A stretch of DNA of 64,000 nucleotides from Actinomycetota bacterium (GTDB lineage: Bacteria; Actinomycetota; Actinomycetes; Nanopelagicales; Nanopelagicaceae). The position numbers and the translations under genes are program-made. Within the stretch, counting starts at the first letter, position 1; every line of letters begins with the position of its first letter. The stretch lies in NCBI GenBank assembly GCA_947449535.1, contig CANFRP010000005.1, positions 1 through 64,000 of the forward strand. The letters run 5' to 3'. Below the pieces are notes generated by a model, which ran no database searches, was not told where the DNA came from, and saw only the letters and a program-made list of their open reading frames with translations. Of this stretch, positions 1,507-38,840 are shown piece by piece.

Positions 1507-3183
1507 ATGAGCAATCCAATGAAGCCACGTTCTGGAATGGTCACTGATGGCATGGAACGTGCTCCGGCTCGCGGAATGCTGCGCGCAGTTGGCATGGGGG
1601 ATGATGATTGGGTTAAACCACAGATCGGTATTGCCTCATCGTGGAATGAAATTACTCCCTGCAATCTTTCGCTTGATCGTTTAGCTAAGGCATCTCGCAA
1701 AGGTGTAATCGATGCTGGTGGATTCCCGATGCAATTTGGCACCATCTCAGTATCAGATGGAATTTCTATGGGCCATGAAGGTATGCACTTCTCATTGGTC
1801 TCTCGCGAAGTTATTGCAGACTCAGTAGAAACCGTCATGCAGGCAGAGCGCCTAGATGGCATGGTGACATTTGCCGGTTGTGACAAATCACTTCCTGGCA
1901 TGATGATGGCGGCAGCTCGTATCGATGTTGCCAGCGTCTTTGTTTATGCAGGATCAACATTGGCCGGAAATGTGGATGGCAAAGATGTCACCATTATCGA
2001 TGCCTTTGAAGCAGTCGGTGCCTGTGCTCGTGGACTAATTTCGCAAGAGCAAGTCGACAAGATTGAACGCGCAATCTGTCCGGGCGAAGGTGCTTGCGGT
2101 GGCATGTATACCGCTAACACTATGGCAGCGGTTGGCGAAGCAATTGGCCTCTCGCTTCCAGGGTCGGCATCACCTGCAGCAGTCGATCGTCGCCGCGATG
2201 ATTACGCCGTTAAATCTGGCGCCGCAGTTGTTGAATTAATTCGCAAGGGGATCACTACTCGCGATATTTTGACAAAGAAGGCATTTGAGAATGCAATCAC
2301 AGTCGTGATGGCACTGGGTGGATCTACCAATGCAGTTCTTCACTTACTTGCCATCGCCAATGAAGCGGAAGTTGATCTCACGCTCGAAGATTTCCATCGA
2401 ATTGGATCAAAAGTGCCACTACTGGGCGATCTCAAACCATTTGGTAAATACGTCATGACTGATGTCGATCGGGTCGGCGGAATTCCTGTGGTTATGCGCG
2501 CGCTCTTTGACGCCGGATATTTGCACGGTGATTGCCTCACCGTCACTGGCAAAACTTTGGCGGAAAATCTAGAAGAGATCACTCCACTTGATCCAGATGG
2601 TGAAGTTCTCCATGCCATCAAAACTCCGTTAGCACCAGGCGGGGGAATCACCATTCTTGGTGGGTCACTTGCACCCGAAGGCGCAGTCTGTAAGACAGCA
2701 GGAATTGAAGTGGAACATTTCGAAGGCCCGGCCCGGGTATTTGAACGCGAGCAATCTGCAATGGAAGCTTTAGAAAATGGCACCATTGTCGCTGGCGATG
2801 TTGTTGTTATTCGCTACGAAGGTCCCAAGGGAGGACCGGGAATGCGCGAAATGTTGATGATTACTGGTGCAATCAAGGGCGCCGGTCTCGGTAAATCAAC
2901 ACTACTTCTCACCGATGGTCGCTTCTCTGGCGGATCTACTGGACTTTGCGTAGGACACGTTGCACCGGAAGCAGTTGATGGGGGACCGATCGCATTTATT
3001 AAAGATGGTGATCGCATCCGCATTAATACCGTCGATCGCACATTGGATCTTTTGGTTGATGAAGCAGAAATGACCGAGCGCCGTAAACACTTCGCACCCG
3101 TCCCACATAAATTTAAGCGAGGCGTCCTTGCGAAATATGCCAAGGTCGTGGGTTCGGCCTCACAGGGCGCGGTCTGCTCTTAA
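1507..3183 (+). CDS. ilvD: Dihydroxy-acid dehydratase
   Basis: 558 aa ORF with IlvD motifs ([45 protein letters not shown]); GAGGAG upstream. Confidence 0.96.
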
Positions 3184-3230
3184 TTCGTTCAGAAAGCCCT
3201 GACCAAATAATGAGATCTCCGTCTCAGGGG

Positions 3231-3259
3231 TTGACTCATGGCTGTGCTCGCGCGAGAAT
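3231..3259 (+). promoter_or_regulatory. Promoter of the ilvB leader: TTGACT-N17-GAGAAT
   Basis: TTGACT at 3231-3236, 17-nt spacer, GAGAAT at 3254-3259; the expected start site falls on the A of the leader ATG. Confidence 0.7.
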
Positions 3260-3265
3260 TAGCGC

Positions 3266-3304
3266 ATGACATCATCAGTGGTGATTCGAGAGCGCGCGAT
3301 CTAG
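3266..3304 (+). CDS. Branched-chain amino acid leader peptide MTSSVVIRERAI*
   Basis: 12-codon ORF with Val-Val-Ile and a terminal Ile, between a promoter and an intrinsic terminator upstream of ilvB. Confidence 0.75.
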   Translation: MTSSVVIRERAI

Positions 3305-3324
3305 TCCAACTAGATGGCGTGCTA

Positions 3325-3353
3325 CCCCTCAGTTAAACACTGAGGGGTTTCTC
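3325..3353 (+). terminator. Intrinsic terminator/attenuator upstream of ilvB
   Basis: CCCCTCAGT-TAAAC-ACTGAGGGG (9-bp stem) followed by TTTCTCATTT. Confidence 0.85.
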
Positions 3354-3403
3354 ATTTAGCCACAACACATGAGCCACAACAATTAAGGAAGGGAGATGAA
3401 CAT

Positions 3404-5146
3404 ATGAGCAATCAGCAAATTACGGGGGCAAGTGCACTCGTCAAAGCGTTAGAGCTTTCTGGCGTTGACGTGATGTTCGGTATCCCTGGTGGTGCAATTC
3501 TTCCTGCTTATGATCCGATCTTTGACAGCCCGATCCGCCACATTTTGGTGCGCCACGAACAAGGCGCAGGACATGCGGCAACTGGCTACGCACAAGCGAC
3601 TGGAAAAGTTGGCGTGTGTATCGCTACCTCCGGACCTGGTGCTACCAATTTAGTTACTCCACTTGCTGATGCGCAGATGGACTCAGTTCCGATCGTGGCC
3701 ATCACGGGTCAAGTCTCTTCAGGCGCAATCGGCACAGATGCTTTCCAAGAAGCCGATATTCGCGGAATCACGATGCCAGTAACCAAGCACAGCTTCCTTG
3801 TTACCGATCCAGCAGATATCGCAGGCGCAGTTGCGCAGGCATTTCATATTGCAAGCACGGGTCGCCCAGGTGCAGTCCTTGTCGATATCGCAAAAGATGC
3901 GCTACAGAAGATGACAGATTTCAATTATCCAAAAGATATAAAGCTTGCTGGTTACCACCCGGTGATGGTGCCGGACGAAGGCGCCGTTCGTGATGCCGCT
4001 CGTTTGATCGCAGAATCTAAATCGCCCGTTCTCTACGTTGGTGGCGGAGTCATTAGATCAGAAGCGCACAAAGAGTTAATGAAGCTCGCTGAACTTACCG
4101 GTGCACCAGTTGTCACAACATTGATGGCTCGTGGCGGATTCCCTGACTCTCATCCTCAGCATCTTGGTATGCCGGGAATGCACGGAACAGTTGCTGCAGT
4201 AACTGCACTTCAGAAATCAGATCTGCTCATTACTTTAGGAGCCCGCTTTGATGATCGTGTTACTGGAAAGCTTTCAACTTTTGCCCCGAGTGCAAAAGTT
4301 ATTCATGCAGATATAGATCCAGCGGAAATTGGCAAGAATCGTCGTGCAGATGTTGCACTCGTGGGAGATCTTAAAATCACTATTGATGCGCTAATTCCAG
4401 CCGTCAAACATGAATTCAAGAAGTCCCAACCTGATCTCACTGAATGGTGGACGTTAGTTAATTCATATCGTTCTAAATTCCCATTGGGTTATGACCATCC
4501 TGAAGATGGCTCACTCTCACCTCAATATGTGATTGAACGGCTTGGAAAAATCGCTGGCCCAGATGCAATTTATGTTGCAGGTGTGGGACAACATCAGATG
4601 TGGGCTTCGCAATTTGTTAATTACGAGAATCCACGTACTTGGCTCAACTCTGGTGGCCTGGGCACAATGGGTTACGCAGTTCCTGCTGCCATGGGCGCAA
4701 AAGTGGGCGCACCAGATAAGACCGTGTGGGCGATCGATGGCGATGGTTGCTTCCAGATGACTAACCAAGAGTTAGTTACTTGTGCACTCAACAATATTCC
4801 GATCAAAGTCGCCATCATTAACAATGAAAGCCTCGGCATGGTTCGCCAATGGCAGACCCTGTTCTATAACGAGCGTTATTCCAATACCGAACTTCACTCC
4901 AAGCGCATTCCAGATTTCACCAAGTTGGCAGATGCGATGGGTTGCGTTGGACTTCGTTGCGATTCCAAGGACGATGTCGATAAGACAATCGCTCAAGCAA
5001 TGGAAATTAACGATCAACCGGTAGTAGTGGACTTCAGCGTATTCCGTGATGCCATGGTCTGGCCGATGGTTGCCGCTGGTGCATCTAATGATGACATTGT
5101 CGTTGCGCGTTCAATGGCACCTATCTGGGATTCACAGGAGCTCTGA
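3404..5146 (+). CDS. ilvB: Acetolactate synthase large subunit
   Basis: 580 aa; [36 protein letters not shown]-binding [12 protein letters not shown]. Confidence 0.96.
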
Positions 5147-5151
5147 TTAAT

Positions 5152-5658
5152 ATGACAACAAGGCAGAAGCACACACTCTCCGTTCTCGTAGAGAACAGCC
5201 CTGGCGTACTTGCTCGCGTCTCTTCTTTATTCTCGCGTCGCGCTTACAACATCGATTCACTTGCTGTGGGTCCAACAGAAAATCCTGATTATTCACGAAT
5301 GACAATTGTGATTGATGTTGAAGGTCATGCCCTTGAGCAAGTCGTGCAACAACTCGACAAGCTCGTCAATGTCATCAGCATTACCGAACTCGATCCCATC
5401 GTTTCGGTGCAGCGCGAACTTCTCTTGGTGAAAGTCGCGACCACTGCGACCACTCGTTCGCAGGTCCTTGAGACCGTTCAACTTTTCCGAGCCAAAGTCG
5501 TCGATGTTGCACAAGATGCAGTCACGATCGAGGCGACCGGAAATGCTGAGAAGATCCAAGCTCTCCTCAGCGTGCTTGAGCCATATGGCATTAAGGAATT
5601 GGTCCAATCTGGGCTTGTCGCGATCTCGCGCGGGCTCAAGACTGGGTCAAATCAATAA
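5152..5658 (+). CDS. ilvN: Acetolactate synthase small subunit
   Basis: 168 aa ACT-domain protein (HTLSVLVENSPGVLARVSSLFSRRAYNIDSLAVGPTE). Confidence 0.96.
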   Translation: MTTRQKHTLSVLVENSPGVLARVSSLFSRRAYNIDSLAVGPTENPDYSRMTIVIDVEGHALEQVVQQLDKLVNVISITELDPIVSVQRELLLVKVATTATTRSQVLETVQLFRAKVVDVAQDAVTIEATGNAEKIQALLSVLEPYGIKELVQSGLVAISRGLKTGSNQ

Positions 5659-5678
5659 TTTCAACGCTTTAGAATTAA

Positions 5679-8355
<2,677 letters not shown>

Positions 8356-8357
8356 AT

Positions 8358-9410
8358 ATGTCTAATAGTTCCAAGGTGAGTTTCAATCTAGCAGTCATTG
8401 CTGGCGATGGAATTGGTCCTGAGGTTGTTGCCGAAGGTATCAAAGTCTTGGATGCAGTATCTGCAAAGTACGGTGTCACATTTGCAAAGACGGAATATGA
8501 CCTCGGTGCCAAGTATTGGCACAATACCGGGGAGACTCTTCCAGACTCTGTGCTTGCAGATCTCGCTAAATCAGATGTTATTCTCTTGGGCGCAGTCGGA
8601 GATCCGACCGTACCCAGCGGCGTGCTTGAACGCGGCCTCTTATTAAAGCTTCGTTTTGCATTTGATCACTACATCAATCTTCGTCCCGCCAAACTTTGGC
8701 CGGGCACCAAGTCACCACTTGCTGGTGATCCTGCAATTGATTTCATCGTTGTCCGGGAAGGAACCGAAGGGCCATACGTTGGCGCTGGCGGAGTTCTGGC
8801 TTTCGGCACCGAAAATGAAATTGCTACAGAGGAATCACTCAATACTCGTCGCGGAGCTGAGCGCGTTATTCGCGATGCTTTTGCCCGCGCATCGGCTCGC
8901 CCGCGCAAGAAGTTGACCCTGGTCCATAAGAACAATGTGCTTACTCGCGCTGGTGGACTTTGGACTCGCACCTTTAACGATGTCGCTAAGGAATTTCCAG
9001 ATATCACAACGGATTATTTACATGTTGATGCAGCGTCCATGTTCTTTGTTACCAATCCAGAGCGCTTTGATGTAGTTGTTACCGATAACCTCTTCGGAGA
9101 TATCTTGACTGATATTGCTGCTGCAATCTGTGGCGGAATAGGACTTGCCGCTTCGGGCAATATCAATCCAACCGGAAAATTCCCATCAATGTTCGAGCCA
9201 GTACACGGCTCTGCTCCAGATATTGCCGGCAAGAATCTTGCTGATCCGACCGCAACCGTCATGTCAGTTGCGATGTTGCTTTCACACCTTGGTCTCAATG
9301 AGGCTGCTGCCGACGTTGAGCGCGCAGTTGCAGCAGACTTACTTTCTCGTGGCGATTCCAAACGCAGTACTTCGGAAATTGGAAGTGCGCTAGCAGGGGC
9401 CGTGAAGTAA
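8358..9410 (+). CDS. leuB: 3-isopropylmalate dehydrogenase
   Basis: 350 aa; [43 protein letters not shown]. Confidence 0.94.
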
Positions 9411-10496
9411 ATGAAAGTAAATCTCACTCCTAATCCATCACCTGTATCTGACGCTGATCGCACCGCAAAAATTGCGGAAGGTGGGTTTGGTAAGCACTAC
9501 ACCGACAATATGGTGATTGCGAATTGGAGCGAGGCCGATGGTTGGAGCGATGCCACGCTTCAGGCTTATGGTCCGATCACACTTGATCCAGCAACAGCGG
9601 TCTTTCATTATGGTCAAGAGATCTTTGAAGGAATGAAGGCTTACACACAGCCAGATGGAAGCATCTCGCTTTTTCGGCCGGAAGCAAATGCAGCTCGCTT
9701 TGCACGCAGCGCAGCGCGCCTTGCACTTCCAGAAATGCCGATCGACTTCTTCGTCGATACCGTTAAAGAATTAGTGAAGCAGGATCGCAAGTGGACTCCG
9801 ACGCAGGTCGGCGAGTCGCTCTACATTCGCCCTTTCATGATCGCTACCGAAGTAGGACTTGGAGTTCGTCCATCAAATAAGGCGATGTACTTACTAATCG
9901 CAACTCCAGCATCTGCATATTTCAATGCCTCCAAAGCAGTCACAGTATGGATCTCTACCGAATTCGTTCGCGCAGCTCCCGGCGGTACTGGTGAGGCAAA
10001 ATGCGGCGGCAACTACGCAGCATCACTCGTTGCCCAAAAACAAGCCGCAACTCAAGGATGCGATCAAGTGGTCTGGTTAGATGCCAATGAACGCAAATGG
10101 GTGGAGGAGATGGGCGGCATGAACCTCTACTTCATCAAGGGCGTCGGCAAAGAAGCAACTGTTATTACCCCCAAGCTCACAGGAACACTTCTTCCTGGTA
10201 TCACTCGCGATTCAATTCTGACGGTCGCGAAAGATCTCGGCTATAAAGTTGAAGAGACAATGCTGTCGATCGATGATTGGCGCGAGGGCGTTGCATCAGG
10301 TGAAATTACCGAAATTTTTGCATGTGGAACTGCTGCTGTAATCACTGCAGTTGGCGCAGCTAAGAGTGTGCACGGTACCTGGCCAACCGGCAATGGTGAG
10401 CCCGGCCCGATCACTATGGAGATTCGTAATCACTTGCTGGGCATTCAGCATGGGACCGTAGCGGATAAGCATGGATGGAATGTGAAGGTCTGTTAA
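9411..10496 (+). CDS. ilvE: Branched-chain amino acid aminotransferase
   Basis: 361 aa; YGQEIFEGMKAYTQPDGSISLFRPEANAAR. Confidence 0.95.
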   Translation: MKVNLTPNPSPVSDADRTAKIAEGGFGKHYTDNMVIANWSEADGWSDATLQAYGPITLDPATAVFHYGQEIFEGMKAYTQPDGSISLFRPEANAARFARSAARLALPEMPIDFFVDTVKELVKQDRKWTPTQVGESLYIRPFMIATEVGLGVRPSNKAMYLLIATPASAYFNASKAVTVWISTEFVRAAPGGTGEAKCGGNYAASLVAQKQAATQGCDQVVWLDANERKWVEEMGGMNLYFIKGVGKEATVITPKLTGTLLPGITRDSILTVAKDLGYKVEETMLSIDDWREGVASGEITEIFACGTAAVITAVGAAKSVHGTWPTGNGEPGPITMEIRNHLLGIQHGTVADKHGWNVKVC

Positions 10497-12079
10497 TGAA
10501 TGACAACTTTCATATCTATGACACCACCCTTCGTGATGGAGCCCAACAAGAAGGCTTAAATCTCACCGTTCATGACAAGCTTGCAATTGCGCGTCATCTC
10601 GATGATCTCGGGGTCGGTTTTATCGAAGGTGGATGGCCGGGCGCTAATCCAAAGGACACCGAATTTTTTAAGCGCGCCCAAACAGAGTTGAAATTAAAAA
10701 ATGCAACATTCGTTGCATTTGGCGCGACTCGTCGCCCAAATGTGAAGGCAGCTGATGACACTCTTCTTCGCGCACTTCAAGATTCCGGGGCGCCAGCAGT
10801 TACTTTGGTGGCCAAGAGCCATGATCGCCACGTCGATTTAGCTCTCAAAACCAACCTTGATGAGAATCTGGCGATGATCCGTGATTCAATTAAATTCTTG
10901 CGCGATGGTGGCCAACGAGTTTTTCTCGATGCCGAACATTTCTTTGATGGCTACCTTTCAAATAAGGCATACGCGCTAGAGGTTGTACGCACTGCTGCGG
11001 AAGCTGGCGCCGATGTCGTTGCCCTGTGTGACACAAACGGTGGAATGTTGCCGGATGAACTTTCCCAAGTTGTTCATGAAGTACTTGGTCTTTCAGGTGC
11101 GCGGCTTGGTATTCATTGCCACAACGACACAGGGTGCGCGATCGCTAACTCACTTGCTGCTGTTGCTGCAGGTGCCACTCACGTACAAGGAACCCTTAAC
11201 GGCTATGGAGAGCGCACCGGTAACGCCGATCTCGTCTCCATCATTGCTAATTTAGAATTGAAGAAGCAACAGAAGGTATTGCCCGAAGGATCACTTCGGG
11301 AAGCGTTTCGGATCTCCCATGCGGTAGCCGAAGTTACCAATGTCGCACCATCTCCTCGTCAGCCATTTGTTGGTGTTTCCGCCTTTGCTCATAAAGCTGG
11401 CTTGCATGCAAGTGCAATCAAAGTAGATCCCAATCTCTATCAGCACGAAGATCCAGCATCTGTCGGAAACGATATGCGCATGCTGGTCTCTGATATGGCT
11501 GGTCGCGCATCCATCGAATTGAAATCTGCCGAGCTGGGAGTGGAACTTGGCGATGATAAGGAAGTTGTCACTCGCGTGGTTGCTCGAGTCAAAGAGATGG
11601 AAGCTCGTGGCTATACCTTTGAAGCGGCTGATGCCTCCTTCGAACTTCTTCTTCGAGAAGAGATTGATGGAAAGCGAGCGCACTTCTTCACCATTAATCA
11701 TTGGGAGATCTCGGTCATTCGCGATGAGAAAGATTTGGTTACCTCTAAGGCCACCGTTTCCATCACTGCTGGCACAGAAGAGATTTCTGCCACCGGTACC
11801 GGAAATGGTCCAGTAAATGCAATCGATAACGCGCTCCGTTCTGGCCTGGAAGAAATTTATCCAGAACTCGCCGCGCTCGAACTTACTGATTACAAAGTTC
11901 GCATCCTCGAAGGTCGCCTTGGAACTGGTGCGATAACTCGCGTATTGGTAGAAACCAAAGATGCGCAAGGAGAGTGGAGCACTATTGGTGTCCACGAGAA
12001 TGTGATTGCAGCATCTGCTGCTGCGTTGGAAGATGCCGTGACATATGGCCTACTCCGTCAAGGACGCAAGCCCGAATAG
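10496..12079 (+). CDS. cimA: Citramalate synthase (LeuA/CimA family)
   Basis: IYDTTLRDGAQQEGLNLTVHDKLAIA, GGWPGANPKD, HCHNDTGCAIANSLAAV; start at 10496 overlaps the ilvE stop (TAATG). Confidence 0.9.
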   Translation: MNDNFHIYDTTLRDGAQQEGLNLTVHDKLAIARHLDDLGVGFIEGGWPGANPKDTEFFKRAQTELKLKNATFVAFGATRRPNVKAADDTLLRALQDSGAPAVTLVAKSHDRHVDLALKTNLDENLAMIRDSIKFLRDGGQRVFLDAEHFFDGYLSNKAYALEVVRTAAEAGADVVALCDTNGGMLPDELSQVVHEVLGLSGARLGIHCHNDTGCAIANSLAAVAAGATHVQGTLNGYGERTGNADLVSIIANLELKKQQKVLPEGSLREAFRISHAVAEVTNVAPSPRQPFVGVSAFAHKAGLHASAIKVDPNLYQHEDPASVGNDMRMLVSDMAGRASIELKSAELGVELGDDKEVVTRVVARVKEMEARGYTFEAADASFELLLREEIDGKRAHFFTINHWEISVIRDEKDLVTSKATVSITAGTEEISATGTGNGPVNAIDNALRSGLEEIYPELAALELTDYKVRILEGRLGTGAITRVLVETKDAQGEWSTIGVHENVIAASAAALEDAVTYGLLRQGRKPE

Positions 12080-12082
12080 GTT
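12077..12082 (+). promoter_or_regulatory. Candidate -10 element (TAGGTT) 6 nt before xerC ATG, leaderless-type
   Basis: TAGGTT-N6-ATG with no SD; part of a recurrent pattern (see findings). Confidence 0.5.
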
Positions 12083-12088
12083 CGACTT

Positions 12089-12988
12089 ATGTCAGCAGAG
12101 CTAATCGCGCAATACGAAGAGCATCTGGCACTTGTTCGCCATCTCGCAGATAACTCCATAAAAGGATATGTCTCCGATCTCCAATCATTTCTTACCCATA
12201 TGGAGAAGTTGGGGATTACTGAATTCCATAATCTGGAATTAACCCACCTTCGTTCATGGCTCGCTAACTTGCAGAGCATGGGAATTTCGCGAGCAACATT
12301 GATTCGTAGAATTGTTTCGATTCGCGCTTTTACCTATTGGGCGACCAGCAACGGGTGGATCGCCTCTGATATTGGCGCGCAATTATCTATTCCAAAGCCC
12401 CACAAAACTCTGCCAGCAGTACTCAATCAGAGCGACACCACAATTGTTCTGGACTCTCTACAAACTCGCTGCGATCAAGAGCCAACGCCAATTCACTACC
12501 GCGATTTAGCAGCTGTCGAAATCCTCTATGCCGCGGGCATCCGAGTATCCGAACTCTGTGGACTCAATTTGGCGGATATTGATCGCTCCCGAAATACATT
12601 GCGAGTTATCGGCAAAGGCGATAAAGAACGCACTGTTCCACTGGGAATTCCAGCGATGCGCGCATTGGAAAATTGGATTTCACTTGCTCGTCCGCAACTA
12701 GCTACCGAAATATCTGGCCAAGCAGTCTTCATTGGTTCCCGGGGAAAGCGAATTGATCAACGCACTATTCGCGAAATTGTGTATCAGGCAATGTCAGCAG
12801 TGGGATCAACGATGGGACCACATGGACTTCGCCATACTGCCGCCACTCATTTATTAGAAGGTGGCGCCGACCTTCGTACCGTTCAAGAGATTTTGGGCCA
12901 TTCATCACTTGCAACAACTCAGATTTACACCCATGTGAGCCCGGAGCGCCTCAAAGCTGCATACAAGCAAGCCCATCCTCGGGCTTAA
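12089..12988 (+). CDS. xerC: Tyrosine recombinase XerC (host chromosome dimer resolution)
   Basis: 299 aa; GKGDKERTVPLG, MGPHGLRHTAATHLLEGGADLRTVQEILGHSSLATTQIYTHVS. Confidence 0.88.
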   Translation: MSAELIAQYEEHLALVRHLADNSIKGYVSDLQSFLTHMEKLGITEFHNLELTHLRSWLANLQSMGISRATLIRRIVSIRAFTYWATSNGWIASDIGAQLSIPKPHKTLPAVLNQSDTTIVLDSLQTRCDQEPTPIHYRDLAAVEILYAAGIRVSELCGLNLADIDRSRNTLRVIGKGDKERTVPLGIPAMRALENWISLARPQLATEISGQAVFIGSRGKRIDQRTIREIVYQAMSAVGSTMGPHGLRHTAATHLLEGGADLRTVQEILGHSSLATTQIYTHVSPERLKAAYKQAHPRA

Positions 12989-13066
12989 TTTGGCGCACCT
13001 ACGCCCAGCCTTTAGGATTACCCCAGCAGAAACCCAAGAAATTGGGGCTCTGACTTCACGCACTTG

Positions 13067-13213
13067 ATCTGATGAATTTCAGATAACCATTTCGGTCCCG
13101 GATTTATTCGGGTCGGTGTTCAAGTGCTAGGGGCCAAACAAATTGTTAGGCCGACAACCGAGTGCACTCGTTGCAGTTATATCTGCGCGCGTGCAAAAAA
13201 GGAGAACACTGCC
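13067..13213 (+). promoter_or_regulatory. Candidate structured rpsB 5' leader with several consecutive hairpins
   Basis: ATCTGA-tgaatt-TCAGAT (13067-13084); GGCC-A-AACAA-A-TTGTT-A-GGCC (13132-13152); CAAcCGAG-TGCA-CTCGTTG (13155-13173); GCAG-TTATAT-CTGC just downstream. Confidence 0.5.
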
Positions 13214-38759: not shown

Positions 38760-38840
38760 ATTGGTCCTCGGTAGTGGTTTCCGGATTTGATATCCGTGAA
38801 CTTCGATCGAAGATCCATTTCGGAGTGTCAGGGGTTTTGC
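38760..38840 (+). ncRNA. Probable Actino-pnp type leader RNA upstream of pnp
   Basis: Position between rpsO and pnp; GGTCCTCGGTAGTGGTTTCCGGATTTGATATCCG...CTTCGATCGAAG...CGGAGTGTC with CGGAT/ATCCG, CTTCG/CGAAG and TTCCG/CGGAG pairings. Confidence 0.6.

Follow-up and report, generated by a model that had tools for sequence, protein, structure and literature searches.

How is ilvB controlled from the interval that separates it from ilvD? The question is raised by a 64,000-nucleotide stretch of DNA (the window) from a genome of 1.46 Mb in 60 contigs, assigned to the Nanopelagicales (freshwater acI-type). Between ilvD, which ends at position 3183, and ilvB, which begins at 3404, lie in order a promoter, a short leader ORF, a hairpin (P1), and a terminator hairpin (T), all on the forward strand. 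A preliminary description read this arrangement as a leaderless Val/Ile leader-peptide attenuator of ilvB, related to that of Corynebacterium, and the reading is supported by the codon conservation and promoter–ATG spacing described below. The −35 box TTGACT (3231–3236), of which TTGAC is kept in nearly all homologs, and the −10 box GAGAAT (3254–3259) are identified by sequence and by promoter scan; the spacer between them is 17 nt and a further 6 nt lead to an ATG, so that the pattern originally given, TTGACT-N17-GAGAAT-N6-ATG, matches base for base. The ATG opens a conserved ORF of 12 residues (3266–3304), MTSSVVIRERAI followed by a stop, with the codons ATG ACA TCA TCA GTG GTG ATT CGA GAG CGC GCG ATC TAG. 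Its GTG GTG ATT (3278–3286) encodes the Val-Val-Ile run that had been noted, at positions 5–7.

The hairpin previously placed at about 3292–3322, over the end and stop of the ORF, extends from 3291 to 3323. This is P1, recovered by folding, covariation, and ribosome-masked folding; it has 14 pairs with one internal mismatch, overlaps the end of the leader ORF, and holds the stop codon TAG (3302–3304) within its 5′ arm. The terminator said to follow it is found by both folding and terminator scan at 3324–3348 (ACCCCTCAGT-TAAAC-ACTGAGGGGT), adjoining P1 with a 0-nt linker; its tail, TTCTCATTT, is an interrupted U-tract (UUUCUCAUUU). Between 3150 and 3420 the scans return exactly one promoter site, that of the leader (0.4 expected), and exactly one terminator, T (0.2 expected). 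The leader folds at −44.0 kcal/mol, versus −22.1 ± 3.3 for dinucleotide shuffles (z = −6.6; 0 of 200 as low). A strict scan of the window for leaderless genes yielded no clear second case. Among the Rfam 15 covariance models, none matches 3180–3420 at E values up to 5, and none matched an ilvB leader at the gathering threshold in eight other Actinomycetes loci; anywhere in the window, only the Actino-pnp RNA (RF01688), at 38760–38818, exceeds its Rfam threshold.

Directly downstream of the element is the gene for the large subunit of acetolactate synthase, ilvB (3404–5146, forward strand; above the cut-offs of NCBIfam NF005860 and TIGR00118), followed in tandem on the same strand by ilvN, ilvC, serA, leuB, ilvE, and cimA (5152–12079), presumably the rest of the operon. 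The assignments of ilvN and serA come from NCBIfam and that of cimA from TIGR00977; ilvC, leuB, and ilvE are named by resemblance of their reading frames. No promoter-like site was detected on the forward strand in 3360–13200, and the element therefore probably governs the entire seven-gene cluster. In this genome cimA (10475–12079) lies directly after ilvE inside the ilvB cluster; in many other Actinomycetes it has its own leader.

The element is conserved across hundreds of genomes, which excludes a chance origin. A covariance model built from 20 Nanopelagicales sequences (R1) matches 186 of the 201 genomes of the order, and 104 of 108 among good genomes; it also finds the corresponding place in Jiangella, Nocardioides, Cellulomonas, Dactylosporangium, and others. 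In its own genome R1 has one true copy. A weak second match there (G000:C2:32243–32316) proved to be an ordinary terminator between convergent genes. A class-wide model (R2), run on 148 genomes sampled evenly across the class, matches 141 of them and 67 of 71 genera; five of the seven genomes without a match belong to a single family (f35: G290, G299, G308, G326, G334), where the element is either lost or strongly diverged. Across P1 and T, 22 of 24 pairs have changed on both sides (201 cells vs. 69.5 in shuffled alignments) in an alignment fitted to the model with 3 spurious rows among 57; sliding the partners destroys the signal, and an independent MAFFT alignment of 20 sequences shows covariation in the same direction. 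For T, covariation is seen in helix 3 of alignment A2. The ilvB attenuator is thus no peculiarity of Corynebacterium or Streptomyces; it is close to universal in the class, streamlined freshwater actinobacteria included, and a covariance model is now supplied where Rfam has none.

Upstream regions were taken from 110 ilvB loci, and the leader, P1, and T could be read in 100 distinct ones. Leader peptides rich in V, I, and L are conserved class-wide. Nanopelagicales leaders mostly carry V(V)VI and then stop, either within 0–1 codons (MSTTFVVVI, SVVVIR) or after about five further codons (ending RERAI); in other Actinomycetes the runs are LVVI, ILV, LLVV, and similar. The preliminary description would have been contradicted by a terminator kept where the leader ORF and its Val/Ile codons were not. 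The codons proved to be conserved, and they are constant in amino acid rather than in nucleotide sequence: the V(1–5)I run has 18 different spellings among 48 Nanopelagicales leaders, and it is therefore the amino acids that are under selection. The final Ile before the stop, which had also been singled out, is indeed present but is not a conserved sensor, since the residue is I or L within the genus and differs again outside it; nor would Ile12 be a useful one, since a ribosome at that position already covers P1. In three loci (L027, L042, L043) the leader is MLSRISVRLERAS followed by a stop, without a run of branched-chain amino acid codons, and the promoter, P1, and T are kept; this lineage may have a reduced or altered sensor.

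The first choice of start codons gave a small bonus to branched-chain amino acid content and to a spacing of 6–7 nt, and the measurement was therefore repeated blind, picking the best promoter regardless of any ATG and then measuring the distance to the next ATG or GTG. Nanopelagicales leaders showed a spacing of exactly 6 nt in 45 of 51 cases, and leaders of other Actinomycetes one of 6 or 7 nt in 41 of 49. Such conservation is strong, if indirect, evidence for leaderless transcripts, with a predicted 5′ end at or next to A3266. Leaderless starts have been mapped for the related leader of C. diphtheriae (PMC5784534) and for S. lividans IlvL (PMC8079986). A literature search found nothing on leader peptides of the Nanopelagicales. 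Leaderless ilvB leader peptides with attenuation are established in Corynebacterium and Streptomyces, and the C. glutamicum leader was reportedly found by Morbach et al. in 2000 to be translated without a ribosome binding site. Canestrari et al. are likewise said to have described, in 2020, leaderless Cys leader peptides in mycobacteria; these resemble the window leader as predicted here, being leaderless short ORFs that serve as amino-acid sensors, and differ in responding to cysteine and in their genes and structures.

What does the arrangement of leader ORF and hairpins imply about function? Folding was repeated with the RNA masked by a 26-nt ribosome footprint, as used for M. tuberculosis (PMC13236596). 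With the A site at V5, V6, I7, and the stop codon, the energy left to the window's P1 is −21.0, −13.1, −6.0, and 0.0 kcal/mol, respectively. When the footprint lies at the first branched-chain amino acid codon, P1 retains 70% or more of its energy in 47 of 49 Nanopelagicales and in all 49 other leaders; when it lies at the stop codon, P1 is left with at most 25% in 49 of 49 and 48 of 49. Conservation therefore protects the register in which control codons, P1, and stop lie, and that register also holds in short-ORF leaders, whose stop falls just before P1.

We consider it likely that the element attenuates transcription of the ilvB operon through ribosomes translating a leaderless leader peptide, with P1 as its antiterminator, a role that P1 probably has to judge from its position and register. 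The transcript would begin with the A of the leader ATG or a base beside it, and the ribosome would initiate without a Shine–Dalgarno sequence. With Val and Ile both plentiful, it would reach the stop codon in the 5′ arm of P1 and cover that arm with its footprint; P1 would then not form, T would, and transcription would terminate. With Val- or Ile-tRNA in short supply, the ribosome would stall at Val5, Val6, or Ile7, and P1 could form just ahead of it, fully at Val5 and partially at Val6 and Ile7. T would then fail, and RNA polymerase would read into ilvB-ilvN-ilvC-serA-leuB-ilvE-cimA. The role proposed for P1 is that of the H2 hairpin of C. glutamicum (PMC11857589) and of the anti-terminator of M. 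tuberculosis (PMC13236596).

The step from P1 to the failure of T is hypothetical: T pairs with a probability of about 0.98 at every ribosome position, and equilibrium folding therefore gives no switch. The preliminary description had seen no classical antiterminator on the 5′ arm of T and suggested that the switching logic may differ. The first observation stands, in that folds masked at V5, V6, I7, and the stop left T at about 0.98 and produced no 2:3 antiterminator of the classical type, but P1 itself is probably the antiterminator rather than an incidental hairpin; because P1 takes this part by position, another need not be sought on the 5′ arm of T. Pairings of the leader UCAGU or of the Val codons with T, considered by eye, are short and not kept in all lineages. 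The second suggestion holds in part: P1 and T share 0 bases, whereas in Corynebacterium at least 3 nt of T go into the antiterminator. Before the 3′ arm of T is made, P1 captures 0 nt of its 5′ arm in the window, and the same holds for 34 of 49 Nanopelagicales. Since the two hairpins have no bases in common, we propose a steric effect, by which a 14-bp P1 abutting T with a 0-nt linker would stop T from closing its lowest pairs in the RNA exit channel. The junction is the constant part of the element; in 100 ilvB leaders the linker is 0 nt in 77, 1 nt in 13, and 2–4 nt in 10, with no such constraint on how long P1 is or how far downstream ilvB begins. Of the window's 15 terminator-like hairpins—a small sample—T alone has an abutting hairpin below −13 kcal/mol. 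The interrupted U-tract of T counts against the attenuator explanation as a whole. The abutting junction without shared bases offers a test case for a hairpin that blocks termination without base competition.

It is also conceivable that the attenuator is the same but P1 a pause or synchronization hairpin, like the trp 1:2 hairpin, with T forming by default and starvation readthrough arising from altered ribosome–polymerase coupling. The compatibility of P1 and T and the stability of T in every masked fold would agree with this, as would the 3′ end of P1, about 10 nt before the loop of T, where a hairpin-stabilized pause could sit. However, a pause hairpin leaves unexplained why the linker stays at 0–4 nt in all ilvB leaders, and at 0–1 nt in the cimA leaders described below, while P1 length varies widely, and why a ribosome at the stop codon would always overlie P1. 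We regard this alternative as unlikely.

The closest experimentally studied relative is the ilvBNC attenuator of Corynebacterium, with the ilvB-II motif (PMC11857589, PMC10272879), which resembles the window in its leaderless peptide (a predicted feature of the window), its control codons, and an antiterminator over the end of the ORF followed by a terminator. In C. glutamicum, Val-to-Ala changes in the leader abolish induction, and expression falls by 80% when the start codon of the leader is replaced (both reported in PMC11857589). An attenuator of the C. glutamicum type would work with three hairpins, the antiterminator and terminator competing for boundary bases and an anti-antiterminator forming without translation. 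The same computation, applied to the published C. ulcerans leader, does extend the antiterminator into T, and such tendencies appear in a few Nanopelagicales (among L047–L055) and in other species. The Corynebacterium leader has an anti-antiterminator, and at least 3 nt of its T also belong to the antiterminator; the window's P1, in contrast, takes 0 nt of the 5′ arm of T and is intact without a ribosome (probability 0.95), and neither overlap nor anti-antiterminator is therefore found there, the latter being present in the folds of a few relatives. Switching through boundary bases common to both hairpins, as in Corynebacterium (PMC11857589), thus does not apply to the window, and a three-hairpin attenuator of this kind is improbable. 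The 80% drop nonetheless fits an anti-antiterminator that the window lacks, and so counts against the explanation favored here.

Other relatives bear on the same reading. The M. tuberculosis ilvB1NC attenuator (PMC13236596) likewise has control codons (LVVI), an anti-terminator that is covered when a ribosome stands at the stop, and a terminator, and changing LVVI to AAAA abolishes its induction; its folds are described as mutually exclusive, whereas those of the window are compatible and abutting. Leaders with terminators before ilvB are described in PMC1262725, PMC8079986, and PMC13236596. Streptomyces IlvL (S. lividans MRTRILVLGKRVG, then a stop; PMC8079986; Seliverstov et al., 2005, PMC1262725) shares the branched-chain amino acid leader peptide (leaderless, as predicted for the window), the hairpins, and a U-rich terminator before ilvB; its control run is ILVL, where the window has VVI, and the relation of P1 to T is not among the features described in the accessible parts of PMC8079986 and PMC1262725. 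In S. coelicolor, changed leader control codons are reported there (PMC1262725) to be without effect, which counts against attenuation by the leader peptide.

A further explanation is that translation is not sensed at all, P1 and T acting constitutively as a tandem terminator of transcripts that read through from ilvD, and the leader ORF being incidental. With ilvD ending just upstream on the same strand, such a terminator would be well placed, but ilvD and the leader are separated by a promoter; conservation extends to the ORF, its Val/Ile codons, and the precise promoter–ATG distance; and the codons of the cimA paralog change with the pathway product. Codon conservation largely refutes this explanation, and we think it very improbable. 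A ligand-binding riboswitch (for ppGpp or a branched-chain amino acid, for example) with an overlapping ORF is scarcely credible: Firmicutes ilvB is under ppGpp riboswitches (as stated in PMC10272879), but the Rfam search was negative at E up to 5, there is no conserved unpaired core, the P1 loops differ in length and sequence, and the C. ulcerans relative does not respond to ppGpp (PMC10272879).

In many genomes of the class R2 has a second match, which in the seven examined (L174–L180) lies directly upstream of a citramalate synthase-like ORF; three of these ORFs are confirmed by TIGR00977 and the rest by sequence resemblance. Citramalate synthase feeds isoleucine synthesis. Among cimA loci from the class (L181–L210), 22 of 30 have the element at most a few hundred bases upstream (for example, L176:111–192 and L194:1326–1416), and the paralog is present in at least 10 Actinomycetes families. 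An R1 search found no second copy in the window's genome, where cimA sits within the ilvB cluster. Covariation is seen in 15 of 24 pairs (79 cells vs. 24.3 shuffled), and the P1–T linker is 0 or 1 nt in 23 of 23 cimA leaders folded. Although their ORFs were picked by promoter and position only, the leader peptides contain Ile runs (MLHHGIIIN, MLRPCIIIH, MSTSTIIIA, MTTTVIIT, each ending at a stop): Ile makes up 22% of their residues and Val 5%, compared with 16–24% Val in ilvB leaders. The codons change with the pathway product, a strong comparative argument for the control codons as the sensor. The re-coded copy amounts to a natural experiment—the same RNA scaffold, another downstream gene, and the matching amino acid—and, the negative mutation result in S. 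coelicolor notwithstanding, speaks for sensing through the control codons.

A literature search found no isoleucine-coded cimA leader, and an attenuator of this kind is apparently undescribed. As far as the search extended, the novelty would lie in the demonstration for Nanopelagicales, the near-universal distribution in the class with a shared P1–T scaffold, the lack of base sharing, and the Ile-coded cimA copy. We suggest, tentatively and as a possibility to which we give rather less than even weight, that most Actinomycetes use a self-contained antiterminator that has no base in common with T and acts by steric abutting (with a linker of 0–1 nt in most), and that this scaffold was duplicated and its Val/Leu/Ile codons re-coded to Ile before cimA.

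Two kinds of cimA leader depart from the common pattern. Those of L178 and L197 (MTSCITT and MASTCITT, each followed by a stop) have one Ile plus Thr codons, and perhaps sense threonine as well. In a family with genomes of 6–10 Mb (f19; L202:3187–3316 and L209:3217–3346), about 40 extra bases are present in the P1 region, and the leader peptide MIIGSRRAGPQ, with its stop, is kept.
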